This document shows positions 669 to 21,369 of a stretch of 22,590 nucleotides of DNA, in pieces. Below the pieces are notes generated by a model, which searched no databases, had not been told where the DNA came from, and saw nothing but the letters and a program-made list of their open reading frames with translations. The first letter of the stretch is position 1. Every line of letters begins with the position of its first letter. The DNA lies in the IMG/VR virus record IMGVR_UViG_3300006753_000083, positions 1-22,590 of that record; one strand, written 5' to 3'. Source of the DNA: a virus. The position numbers and the translations under genes were made by a program.

Positions 669-678
669 TATTTAATAA
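669..678 (+). promoter_or_regulatory. TATA-type promoter of the cysteine-rich/membrane gene pair
   Basis: TATTTAATAA is centred about 23 nt upstream of the ATG at 697. The spacing matches the archaeal rule for a transcript that starts at or next to the start codon. An A-rich stretch (AAACAAATAAC) precedes it where a BRE element would lie. No clear Shine-Dalgarno site precedes the ATG, which agrees with leaderless translation. Confidence 0.45.
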
Positions 679-696
679 ACGAAGGATAGCTATACT

Positions 697-825
697 ATGA
701 AGTGTCAAGGAGCATGTACCTCCAGAGCCAGACGAGAATGTATCTGCTTCGGACGTTGTGGGTGTCATGGTTGCGGTTGTAACTGTTGTCATGCCTGGCG
801 CAAAGGAGAGTTTATTACACCATGA
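697..825 (+). CDS. Cysteine-rich microprotein, 42 aa, metal-binding candidate
   Basis: The ATG at 697 opens 42 codons that end in TGA at 823-825. The protein has ten cysteines (3, 7, 15, 17, 21, 23, 26, 28, 30, 31) and two histidines (24, 32), so almost a quarter of it is Cys. The pattern includes four C-x-C pairs and a CC pair, with the densest part at CGCHGCGCNCC. Such a pattern is typical of metallothionein-like or zinc-cluster peptides; a disulfide-rich fold is the alternative. The N-terminal part also carries Arg/Lys. The stop overlaps the start of the next gene as ATGA, so the two are translationally coupled. A TATA element lies about 23 nt upstream. I know of no named family with this sequence; the metal-binding role is inferred from composition. 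Confidence 0.65.
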   Translation: MKCQGACTSRARRECICFGRCGCHGCGCNCCHAWRKGEFITP

Positions 826-1004
826 AAAAAATTGAATTAGTGAAAGAAAAAATTATATTAGCGAAGGAAGAATCGGAAGAGCGTATGCTTAAAGCTTCAG
901 TACCTTACCAATACGGTGTAATGATAGGTGGGTTAGTTTTCGACCTTACAGTTGTTGTTGTAGTTTTATTTATTTTATCCAAGATTTTAGATTTTATTTT
1001 TTAA
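822..1004 (+). CDS. Small single-pass membrane protein, 60 aa
   Basis: The protein starts MKKIELVKEKIILAKEE, a charged amphipathic helix over about residues 1-26, followed by one hydrophobic segment from about residue 33 to the end (GVMIGGLVFDLTVVVVVLF and onward). It ends DFIF with almost nothing after the membrane span. The ATG at 822 is chosen because it overlaps the preceding stop as ATGA and has AGGAG (804-808) upstream. A longer reading from a TTG at 786 would only re-read the cysteine-rich gene in another frame. Coupling implies that the two proteins are made together. Size and layout would fit a holin-like, exclusion or membrane-anchor protein, but there is no motif to choose between these. 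Confidence 0.6.
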   Translation: MKKIELVKEKIILAKEESEERMLKASVPYQYGVMIGGLVFDLTVVVVVLFILSKILDFIF

Positions 1005-1298: not shown

Positions 1299-1613
1299 CT
1301 ACCGCTTTAATAGTCTCAATAATTCCTCAAGCTCAATCACCGCGTAAGTCTTTCCTCGGTCTTCCTTGACGACTTGCCAGTCTACATTCTCATTAGGTTT
1401 TAAATACCCTGCTATAGACTTACGACACTTGGCTTGTATCTTCCACGGCTCACTGCGTTCGCCGTTCGGATAGATTATAACATCAACTTCAGAATGCTCT
1501 CCCAATGAGCGACCGTCTGAACCCCAAGCTCTCTTAGCCTTGAAGCCACACTTATTAGCTATCGAAACGATTAGGTTTTCAAATCTATTCCCCTTTCTTT
1601 TTTGCCAACTCAT
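1299..1613 (-). CDS. Hjc-like Holliday junction resolvase / PD-(D/E)XK nuclease, 104 aa
   Basis: The protein begins MSWQKRKGNRFENLI, like the N-terminus of archaeal Hjc-type resolvases: a KG-x-x-x-E motif (E12), then GFKAKRAWGSDG (residues 23-34), an acidic residue in EVDVII (D44) and the strand WKIQAKCR with lysine 62. These correspond to the E...D...(E/Q)xK core of the PD-(D/E)XK fold. The position that is usually Glu in the ExK motif is Gln (Q60), a variant known in some members. The family cuts four-way DNA junctions or branched DNA; in a virus it would resolve replication intermediates before packaging. It overlaps the zinc-ribbon gene by 29 bases, so the two are co-transcribed. The fold call is fairly confident; junction specificity is inferred. 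Confidence 0.72.
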   Translation of the reverse strand: MSWQKRKGNRFENLIVSIANKCGFKAKRAWGSDGRSLGEHSEVDVIIYPNGERSEPWKIQAKCRKSIAGYLKPNENVDWQVVKEDRGKTYAVIELEELLRLLKR

Positions 1614-8284: not shown

Positions 8285-9121
8285 ATGGCATTAGATAATC
8301 AAATAACCGATAGAGAGTATGGGAAGTTCAAAGAGAGTACATCAACCCCAACACAGACAGGAGTCGCAGTTGTTAACCCAGATGGCTCAGATATTTTTAA
8401 TCCAGCAGCAGGAATAGATGTTAATGTTCGAGATGGTGCGGGAAGTTCCATTACTTCAACAGCTTCAGCTTTAGATGTCAATGTAGCAAGTGGTACTATA
8501 ATCGCAAACATTGAAGGTGATTATGTAGATGATTCTGCTTTTACTGTAGCTTCAGATAAAGGACTAATAGTTGGTGGAGTATTTACTACTGACCAAATTG
8601 ATTCAGGTGACTTTGGAGCATTTAAAATAAATGCGGATAGAGAGTTAGGAGTGTTTGTAGGAGAAGCTTTACCTACAGGTACTAATTCAATTGGAGATAT
8701 TGCCAACATTACTAATGTAGTAAGTGTAGATGATAATGGTGGAAGTCTAACAGTAGATGGTACAGTTACAGCAACCGTAACAAGAGCAGCACAGCTTGCT
8801 TTGAATACAGATACAGGTGTAGGAAATATTAGTGTTCAAATTAATTTAGGTGTGAGTTTCAAAATCTTAGGAGTTAAAATTCATTTCGCAGGAATACCAA
8901 CAGCAAATGATTTTGTAGTAACTTCAAATAATTTAGCAGGAGGTCCAGCATACGATACAGTTCTTTACAAGGCAGACCCAGGAACTCTTGGAGTAACTGA
9001 TTTAAATTTTGTTCCAGCAGGAGAATTAGTAATTGAAGCAGGAGAATCTTTAACAATTACATTTACAAACGCAGGAGGAACTACTTACGGCCTAACAACC
9101 ACTTATGAATTGCTAATGTAA
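8285..9121 (+). CDS. Beta-rich virion appendage protein, 278 aa
   Basis: The N-terminus (MALDNQITDREYGKF) leads into a segment with NPDGSDIFNP and two DVNV motifs, then SVDDNGGSLTVDGTV (residues about 149-163), a phrase common in virion proteins that decorate capsid or tail. The C-terminal 110 residues look like a beta-sandwich (LGVSFKILGVKIHFAGIP and on). The protein is acidic and has no cysteine. Its stop overlaps the next ATG as TAATG. Because it lies directly after the capsid gene and before the head-tail adaptor, it may be a head fibre or spike protein and not a tail fibre. Function is inferred from composition and location. Confidence 0.6.
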   Translation: MALDNQITDREYGKFKESTSTPTQTGVAVVNPDGSDIFNPAAGIDVNVRDGAGSSITSTASALDVNVASGTIIANIEGDYVDDSAFTVASDKGLIVGGVFTTDQIDSGDFGAFKINADRELGVFVGEALPTGTNSIGDIANITNVVSVDDNGGSLTVDGTVTATVTRAAQLALNTDTGVGNISVQINLGVSFKILGVKIHFAGIPTANDFVVTSNNLAGGPAYDTVLYKADPGTLGVTDLNFVPAGELVIEAGESLTITFTNAGGTTYGLTTTYELLM

Positions 9122-13992: not shown

Positions 13993-14274
13993 ATGAATAA
14001 GCTTGAGAAGGCACCCACTATTAGTATTCAAGCTAGTGGGTTCCCTCTCGCTCCTTTCAAGGAGTGGGATGAGAGCTGTAAGACAGACTTTGGAGATTGT
14101 AGATGGGTGAAGATAATTCACGACCACAATATGGCAAAGGCTTCTACAGCATTCAACCTGCTACTTGAACGAATAGAAAAACTAGAATTACAATTGGATT
14201 TATTAAGTAAGGATGATAAAACCAAAGAGGAAAAAGAATTAATTGTGAAAACAATTGGAGGAGAATTGAAATGA
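13993..14274 (+). CDS. Hypothetical protein, 93 aa, between tube and chaperones
   Basis: The ATG at 13993, with GGAAGGA at 13981-13987, is chosen over an upstream start at 13909 that would run inside the tube gene. The protein starts MNKLEKAPTISIQASGFP, has a Cys pair in SCKTDFGDCRW, and ends with a coiled-coil-like helix (LLERIEKLELQLDLL). Its stop overlaps the chaperone ATG as ATGA. It could be a zinc-independent tail assembly factor, but no family is recognised. Confidence 0.6.
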   Translation: MNKLEKAPTISIQASGFPLAPFKEWDESCKTDFGDCRWVKIIHDHNMAKASTAFNLLLERIEKLELQLDLLSKDDKTKEEKELIVKTIGGELK

Positions 14275-19409: not shown

Positions 19410-20111
19410 ATGACTGAAGGAATTAGTGGAACAATTAAGGACACTCAAGGACTTAAAAATGTAAACGCAGATACAGTTCCTTTATTTGGTTTATATACTG
19501 AAAACTTAAATGTAGATACATACACAACAAGAGTTAGAACTAGAAGTATCGCAGGTACAATTTTAATCTGGGGTAACTCAGGATTCGGACAATGGGGTAC
19601 TTATACTTGGGGTTCGACGGCGAATGTTTCATTCATCTTAGGGAATACTCTAGCAGGGATTTTAGGAACTGCGACCTTAGGAAGTAATGCTTCATCGTGG
19701 TCAATACTAAGAGTTATTAATCCAAATAATATCTGGAAAGAATCGCTGAGAACTGATAGTTTCGAAGATACAACAAACACTACAGCTACTTGGGATACTA
19801 CAAATTTCAGGTGGACTTTCACAACAGGGCAGATTATTCAGACTTTGGCATTTTACCTTGACCAGACTACAATTACAAATGCCACTTTAACAATAGACAG
19901 TAGCAGAATTACAACACCAGCAAATCTCTCTTACGAATTATCAGCAGACGGCGGTACTAACTGGGAAACAGTTACTCTCGGAACAAAGCATACTTTCACA
20001 AACACAGGCATTGATTTGCGGTTGAAAGTAACTGCGAGTGGAGCAGCAACAATAGATGTTGATGACTCTGATGATGTCTCAATTCCAATAGAGGTGTCGT
20101 ATAATCAGTAA
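19410..20111 (+). CDS. Tail appendage protein with beta-sandwich C-terminus, 233 aa
   Basis: The protein begins MTEGISGTIKDTQGLKNVN. The middle (residues 50-75) contains Trp-Gly pairs (IWGNSGFGQWGTYTWGS), a turn-rich pattern seen in fibre proteins. The C-terminal 95 residues contain ELSADGGTNWETVTLG (176-191) and HTFTNTG (194-200), a small beta domain that reappears in the next protein. It starts immediately after the previous stop. A role in the tail tip or as a receptor-contact protein is inferred. Confidence 0.55.
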   Translation: MTEGISGTIKDTQGLKNVNADTVPLFGLYTENLNVDTYTTRVRTRSIAGTILIWGNSGFGQWGTYTWGSTANVSFILGNTLAGILGTATLGSNASSWSILRVINPNNIWKESLRTDSFEDTTNTTATWDTTNFRWTFTTGQIIQTLAFYLDQTTITNATLTIDSSRITTPANLSYELSADGGTNWETVTLGTKHTFTNTGIDLRLKVTASGAATIDVDDSDDVSIPIEVSYNQ

Positions 20112-20113
20112 GG

Positions 20114-20121
20114 TTTAATAA
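20114..20121 (+). promoter_or_regulatory. TATA-type element before the distal appendage genes
   Basis: TTTAATAA sits about 31 nt upstream of the ATG at 20149, inside a 15-base sequence (20110-20124) repeated exactly at 1011-1025. Spacing would give a leader of a few bases. A second AT-rich stretch (TATATTAAAA, 20131-20140) is too near the ATG to be the TATA box. Confidence 0.35.
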
Positions 20122-20148
20122 TAAGGAAGGTATATTAAAAGAAAAGAC

Positions 20149-21369
20149 ATGGCAATTAAAGATGGACAAGTAGCAGACGCAGACGATGTTATGAATGCTT
20201 TTGGATTAGCATTTAAGAATTCAATGAATGCTTTCTTTAACTCAGACTATGATGGGTGGAATGCGAAGTTAGCAGACACGGGAAGTCCACAAGTCAAGAA
20301 CTTGCTTTATGATACTTTACAAACAGACAGTGCCGATGTTAATAGTTCAGGATGGTATTATGATAGTACCGATGATTTGTATAAAACTTTAGATTTAAGT
20401 AAAGGATATATTATTATTGAAGCAGCTGATGCCACCATAAGTTGGTCTTCAAATGATTGTTCACTTCTTAAGCTAAGTTCAGGTCAATGGATATTATATT
20501 ATACTGGTATAGGTACTGCGGAAGTTGCTCGTGCGCAATTACAGAAGAGTTTATTTTGGGGAACTAATGGTTCTGACGACCTTATCCTTGATTTTACTAG
20601 CGTAACTAAGTTGGCTACTTCTGACGCAAACGATGTTGGCAAGAAAGCATATCGTGGAAAAGTTGAGAATGGGAGTTTGGCAGGAACTGAAAGTGGAAAA
20701 TATACTGCTACAGTTACAGGTTCTGGAGGAAATGATAGTATCTGGACAGTCGTACAAGGTAATGCCACTTCACAACATGACTTATATGTTGAAGTTGTAA
20801 CAAATGTAGGTACACCTCAGAGTTCTACGAATGGAGGTGTAGATAAAATGGGAACCGATATGAGTTCTGATGAAGGTACTTATACATCTATTGAACTCAA
20901 ACTTATTGGCGCTGCGTCCTCACCAACTTATTGGGTTGGGACAGGACACACTACTGCCACAATCTTAACTGATGGCTCAGTTTCATGGGTGAAAACCGTA
21001 GCAGGTGGCGGAGCAGTTCTGGGAGATATTACTGCCACAGACGTAGATTATTCTACTACTCATTCAATACCTGCGTTCACAGCAGTAGGTACTGAAGTAA
21101 ACCCATCAACTCTTATATTCAAAGACACCACAACAGCAACAGTAACAAACACGCTTAGCACATGGAACGCAAGTATTGATGCTACGAGTACCTTTGTTGC
21201 TTCAATCTCATACGACGGTGGTAGTAATTACGAAACAATAACTGACGCAACAGTAGCAAGAAATACAAATACAGGAACAGCCGTGTGGTTGAAATTGGTT
21301 AACACACGAACAGATTTAAGTAAGGTAGATACAGTAATGGAGTGGGCAACAGCCTATAATTGGTATTAA
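20149..21369 (+). CDS. Tail appendage/fibre protein, 406 aa
   Basis: The protein starts MAIKDGQVADADDVMNAFGL, an opening like the attachment segment of many fibre proteins (an aliphatic residue, DG, then A-x-DVMN). The middle is mixed beta structure with GQWILYYTGIG and YTATVTGSGGNDSIW. The C-terminal 95 residues contain SISYDGGSNYETITD (353-367), the same beta domain that ends the previous protein. The preceding 37-base gap holds a TATA-type element, so the gene may start its own transcript. Low charge and many Ser/Thr/Gly support surface location. Confidence 0.55.
   Translation: MAIKDGQVADADDVMNAFGLAFKNSMNAFFNSDYDGWNAKLADTGSPQVKNLLYDTLQTDSADVNSSGWYYDSTDDLYKTLDLSKGYIIIEAADATISWSSNDCSLLKLSSGQWILYYTGIGTAEVARAQLQKSLFWGTNGSDDLILDFTSVTKLATSDANDVGKKAYRGKVENGSLAGTESGKYTATVTGSGGNDSIWTVVQGNATSQHDLYVEVVTNVGTPQSSTNGGVDKMGTDMSSDEGTYTSIELKLIGAASSPTYWVGTGHTTATILTDGSVSWVKTVAGGGAVLGDITATDVDYSTTHSIPAFTAVGTEVNPSTLIFKDTTTATVTNTLSTWNASIDATSTFVASISYDGGSNYETITDATVARNTNTGTAVWLKLVNTRTDLSKVDTVMEWATAYNWY

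Follow-up and report, generated by a model that had tools for sequence, protein, structure and literature searches.

What might a reading frame of only 42 codons, ten of them for cysteine, encode in a virus whose proteome is nearly free of this residue, and does it form a genuine unit with the membrane protein frame that overlaps its end? The question is raised by positions 697 to 1,004 of a viral DNA stretch of 22,590 nucleotides (nt), which at its full length is the window analyzed here (IMG/VR record IMGVR_UViG_3300006753_000083, positions 1 to 22,590). An annotation made from the letters alone (the sequence-only reading) had described a 42-codon frame with 10 Cys and 2 His joined through an ATGA overlap to a single-pass membrane protein, and the frames, the hydropathy, and the AlphaFold2 helix bear this description out. 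From its sequence, the locus looks like a real, orphan, lineage-specific gene pair with one extreme feature, its Cys content. We tentatively favor, at somewhat less than even confidence, a lineage-specific accessory cassette that would encode a metallothionein-like metal- or thiol-binding microprotein and a coupled, tail-anchored membrane protein.

Two overlapping frames and a TATA-like element

The first frame lies on the plus strand at 697 to 825 (ATG to TGA) and is identical in a second contig, L002. Its 42-amino-acid (42-aa) product, MKCQGACTSRARRECICFGRCGCHGCGCNCCHAWRKGEFITP, is net positive and strongly cationic (seven Arg/Lys residues), with Cys at positions 3, 7, 15, 17, 21, 23, 26, 28, 30, and 31 and His at positions 24 and 32; from residue 15 onward, the Cys/His order is C-x-C-x3-C-x-C-x2-C-x-C-x-C-C-H. 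Six of the Cys codons fall within codons 21 to 31, just ahead of the ATGA overlap, and only one Cys pair is adjacent. TGT and TGC are used in a ratio of 8:2, which is like that of the virus as a whole (10:1). The second frame (822 to 1004, plus strand, ATG to TAA) encodes a 60-aa single-pass and probably tail-anchored membrane protein, with a charged N-terminal helix and a single predicted transmembrane helix at about residues 32 to 53. Its top 19-residue hydropathy window reaches 2.75 (residues 33 to 51), and AlphaFold2 models residues 2 to 59 as one helix (mean predicted local distance difference test [pLDDT] value of 88.6). Stop and start codons of the two frames overlap in ATGA at 822 to 825 (plus strand), a type of junction that, like TAATG, is ordinary in this virus: another ATGA is located at 14271 to 14274, and 1-nt overlaps occur at 9121, 12771, 16710, and 17381. 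An AAGGAG-like putative ribosome-binding site for the membrane frame is situated inside the Cys frame (801 to 807, plus strand), at a rather long spacing from the ATG.

The upstream TATA element claimed by the sequence-only reading corresponds to the TATA-like TTTAATAA at 671 to 678 (plus strand), which precedes the Cys frame's ATG by 26 nt; as a motif distance, this is compatible with a leaderless start. The same motif class is found 27, 29, 35, and 39 nt upstream of the starts at 1912, 11046, 20149, and 4316, and 4 of its 10 other plus-strand copies sit 27 to 39 nt ahead of gene starts, versus 5% of other A/T-only 8-mers; because the class was picked after the sequence had been viewed, we count this enrichment as moderate evidence. 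The recurrent elements (TTTAATAA, TTTATATA, and TTTAAATA, at 671, 1885, 4277, 11017, and 20114, 26 to 39 nt upstream of gene starts) suggest short-leader or leaderless units in the virus, and the gene pair probably has its own predicted promoter.

Cysteine content and strand signal

The long genes of the virus that served for training contain 11 Cys codons in total (0.19%). When ATG frames of at least 40 aa were counted, none of 12,741 frames from 300 Markov-simulated windows was as Cys-rich as the 42-aa frame (23.8% Cys), and none of 1,459 frames in local simulations reached this value. Caution is required, as Thr/Gln/Ala-rich genes also yield short Cys-rich frames on their antisense strand, both in this virus and across IMG/VR. 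One example, a 30-aa frame with 9 Cys at 8747 to 8839 (minus strand), lies opposite the real gene at 8285 to 9121, and such false Cys-rich frames arise easily. Unlike the settings in which shadow frames arise, there is no long repetitive gene opposite the Cys frame at 697 to 825.

All 29 listed genes have a positive GC skew on the coding strand. Both frames of the pair conform, with coding-strand values of +0.23 for the Cys frame (+0.12 when its Cys codons are excluded) and +0.36 for the membrane frame, while the opposite-strand frame at 616 to 792 does not (–0.06). The skew of the plus strand is positive over 661 to 1080, and this region is flanked by the negative stretches of minus-strand genes. 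On this basis, we rejected the reading of the Cys frame as an antisense shadow. The strand skew, the composition, the overlap, and the suitable position of the TATA-like element support the earlier claim of a real two-gene unit. The check proposed in the sequence-only reading, for conserved adjacency and cysteines in related viruses, yielded only the near-identical contig L002.

Relatives and genomic setting

L002 carries the sole other copy of the pair, with 100% identical DNA. The two contigs are identical throughout 546 to 1200 and differ in the flank at 1 to 530 by point changes and a 6-base indel. The identity of the pair provides no synonymous or nonsynonymous information, so selection on the cysteines cannot be tested from it. 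No copy with frame-disrupting differences was found, and with only one near-identical copy and no disrupted one, conservation neither confirms nor refutes the pair.

Neither protein matched in Pfam, PHROGs, or NCBIfam or by tblastn against phages and plasmids, and the 42-aa peptide, the only one of the two searched against the PDB, matched no chain at E values up to 10. A stricter Cys-spacing pattern with His yielded 15 stretches in IMG/VR, only one of which, on L002, is a true copy; 13 lie opposite long frames (at least 136 aa, mostly Gln/Ala/Thr-rich), and the remaining one lacks an open Cys frame. Two looser Cys-spacing scans of IMG/VR apply to the matches listed and are not exhaustive. We rejected the other Cys-spacing matches as homologues, since nearly all of the strict ones are antisense shadows of Gln/Ala-rich genes. 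The N-terminal pattern of the peptide recovered L002 and two frames interrupted by stops. Four weak matches in 398 archaeal genomes were taken as chance; none shows a short, Cys-rich frame resembling the query, and the strongest (L287) sits opposite long genes. At the RNA level, Rfam gave no match, the Cys frame has no special fold, and 757 to 870 showed no notable structure.

The terminase large subunit (TerL) has Halogranum tailed virus 1, a haloarchaeal virus, as its nearest named relative (29.6% identity). A genome-collection scan with TerL detected one distant relative in a Bathyarchaeota bin and no close provirus; within the phylum of that bin, 78 of 398 genomes match the terminase profile. 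Related contigs encode MCM, an archaeal-type primase small-subunit-like protein, an ATP-dependent ligase, and a Dam methylase. Judged by the TerL affinity and the archaeal replication genes of the relatives, the window comes from an archaeal tailed virus whose group is represented by IMG/VR contigs, the majority with 72 to 94% TerL identity. The virus is presumably marine, judging by what is generally known of such groups and by studies of archaeal viruses in the ocean (PMC5474096).

Within this group, the pair is absent from L006, L009, L010, and L012, which read past the site and have other genes there, and relatives at 72 to 77% TerL identity lack it. Of 16 related records, 15 lack the membrane protein; the site is not covered by several of them. 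On one side of the pair is the early gene block (minus strand) and on the other the late packaging/virion block (plus strand). The genes that adjoin this junction in L012 are encoded on the plus strand, which makes the junction look liable to rearrangement; the absence from relatives together with the variable junction indicates that the cassette is lineage specific. Its own TATA-like element (a predicted promoter), its orientation unlike that of its neighbors, and its sporadic presence in relatives are the features of an accessory (moron-like) unit. A RusA/PDDEXK-like nuclease encoded beside the variable junction (1299 to 1613, minus strand) has 65 to 91% identity in relatives.

Candidate functions and surroundings of the pair

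For the accessory cassette, we infer that both genes are transcribed and translated, that the first product binds metal, that the two products interact, and that they function during infection. Placed at the variable junction between early (minus-strand) and packaging/virion (plus-strand) genes, the pair would form a separate transcription unit, driven by a TATA promoter near position 671 and running opposite to its immediate neighbors. The first gene would give rise to a cationic metallothionein-like microprotein presenting ten thiolates and two imidazoles in CxC, CxxC, and CC spacing, which may coordinate soft metal ions (Zn or Cu) in a small cluster or serve as a thiol buffer in the reducing environment of the cytosol. 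Re-initiation of the ribosome at the ATGA overlap would then produce the tail-anchored protein, which would probably serve the Cys peptide as a membrane partner or docking site.

Bacterial metallothioneins bind 3 to 4 Zn (PMC10612145), and the prokaryotic SmtA/BmtA type (e.g., Synechococcus SmtA and Pseudomonas PflQ2MT; PMC10612145) is similarly small and Cys-rich, with CxC, CxxC, and CC elements and His as possible extra ligands. The 42-aa peptide has a metallothionein-style arrangement (C15xC17, C21xC23, C23xxC26, C26xC28, C28xC30, C30C31, and C31H32) that would be suited to metal binding. However, it differs from the SmtA/BmtA proteins in having no sequence or profile match, another Cys spacing, a strongly cationic character, a viral origin, and coupling to a membrane gene. 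The C(P)XCG zinc microproteins of Haloferax volcanii are likewise small (<70 aa), Cys-rich, and archaeal; nine of 14 purified proteins bound zinc, and AlphaFold2 was unable to tell metal-binding Cys sites (PMC11241148). Unlike these proteins, the 42-aa peptide has no CPXCG or CXCG motif, only a loose CxxCG (Cys23 to Gly27). Judged by profile and motif, it is neither a metallothionein-family member nor a C(P)XCG protein. The metallothionein-like spacing and the bacterial and Haloferax precedents nevertheless lead us to favor a metal- or thiol-binding peptide that would be made with a membrane anchor by translational coupling. Among the functions listed in the sequence-only reading, metal binding fits the composition best, while lysis and superinfection exclusion found no evidence. 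A more specific proposal, in which the pair would be a virus-encoded two-component metal-handling module at the envelope of a marine archaeon (e.g., for copper or zinc capture during infection), is quite doubtful; the searched collections of families, phages, and plasmids contain no counterpart of such a module.

Several observations weigh against a metal-binding peptide. No metallothionein-family match was obtained in Pfam or NCBIfam (E values up to 10). The Cys frame scores poorly by codon usage (–0.94 bits per codon), which is partly due to the rarity of Cys in the training genes, and its synonymous codon choice is neutral (score of –0.015, versus +0.2 for the membrane frame). The pair has no independent homologue and hence no test of purifying selection on the cysteines. 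Single-sequence prediction gave the peptide no fold (pLDDT value of 48) and is uninformative; an apo-metallothionein would likewise be unfolded.

Alternatively, only the membrane gene would be real, and the Cys frame would be an untranslated or fortuitously open leader whose Cys count is an accident of composition. The frame is very short, its codon score is weak, it has no independent homologue, and phage and virus DNA often contains Cys-rich shadow frames. Nonetheless, we regard this explanation as rather unlikely: 0 of the 12,741 simulated frames were as Cys-rich, the long repetitive genes opposite which shadows arise are lacking here, the ATG lies at a promoter-typical distance and the overlap is exact, and L002 matches the pair at 100% identity despite changes in part of the flank.

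The strongest functional rival, absent from the sequence-only reading, is a Cys-codon leader peptide (attenuator), which fits the short leader and the overlap. The mRNA would start at or near the ATG, the supply of cysteine or Cys-tRNA would set ribosome speed over the Cys codons and thereby control the membrane gene, and the peptide itself would be functionless. The 26-nt distance from the TATA-like element to the ATG, the six Cys codons near the overlap, and the neutral codon bias are consistent with this model. Precedent comes from mycobacteria, where polycysteine leaderless short open reading frames (ORFs) are cysteine-responsive leaders (Canestrari et al. 2020, as described in PMC9031893 and PMC9094748); according to the latter, the polycysteine ORFs of Mycobacterium tuberculosis also show a weak codon-position signal. 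As described there, the mycobacterial ORFs resemble the Cys frame, which probably has little or no leader, in being short, Cys-rich, and placed immediately ahead of a gene in an operon, but theirs are contiguous Cys codons, whereas here the codons are spaced, the setting is an archaeal virus, and the downstream gene is an orphan membrane protein. The spread of Cys codons along the frame with one adjacent pair only, the metal-ligand-like spacing and His that attenuation does not require, the lack of notable RNA structure in 757 to 870 or in the Cys frame, and the lack of a visible sulfur or cysteine link of the membrane gene all speak against a leader, which we consider unlikely. We know of no archaeal case of Cys-leader attenuation.

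Very improbable is a small zinc-finger-like binder of nucleic acid or protein (an early regulator or anti-host factor rather than metal storage, with the seven Arg/Lys residues contacting nucleic acid), for although the peptide is strongly cationic with Cys and His and the virus group also has, in its early region, small zinc-ribbon-like proteins that contain Cys (L006, 7588 to 7830; window, 1585 to 1818; and others), these are encoded on the early (minus) strand and use paired CxxC knuckles unlike the dense CxC/CC spacing seen here, no zinc-finger family matched, and coupling to a membrane gene does not point to a DNA binder.

If translated, the favored metal- or thiol-binding peptide would be an extreme Cys outlier in a nearly Cys-free virus, an unusual microprotein of an archaeal tailed virus that could connect infection with the way marine archaea handle trace metals; should it be a leader instead, cysteine-responsive attenuation would extend to archaeal viruses. 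At present, the pair is an orphan from one lineage and not yet a discovery.

Downstream of the pair, the intergenic region at 1005 to 1113 contains a second TATA-like element, AAGGTTTAATAATAA, an exact 15-nt repeat of 20110 to 20124 (ahead of the gene at 20149), followed by a stable G-rich long-range stem. This stem (1045 to 1105, no strand assigned) lies in a convergent intergenic region and may be a bidirectional terminator or a small plus-strand RNA (fold z-score of –3.39 for 1000 to 1130); among 16 family records, it is present only in the window and L002. About 2.5 to 3.4 kb upstream of the window start, L002 encodes an amidoligase-type protein (PF12224; L002, 3 to 923, minus strand) with an N-terminal Cys-rich, zinc-ribbon-like region, and a PNKP-type HAD phosphatase is encoded nearby (L002, 1283 to 1774).
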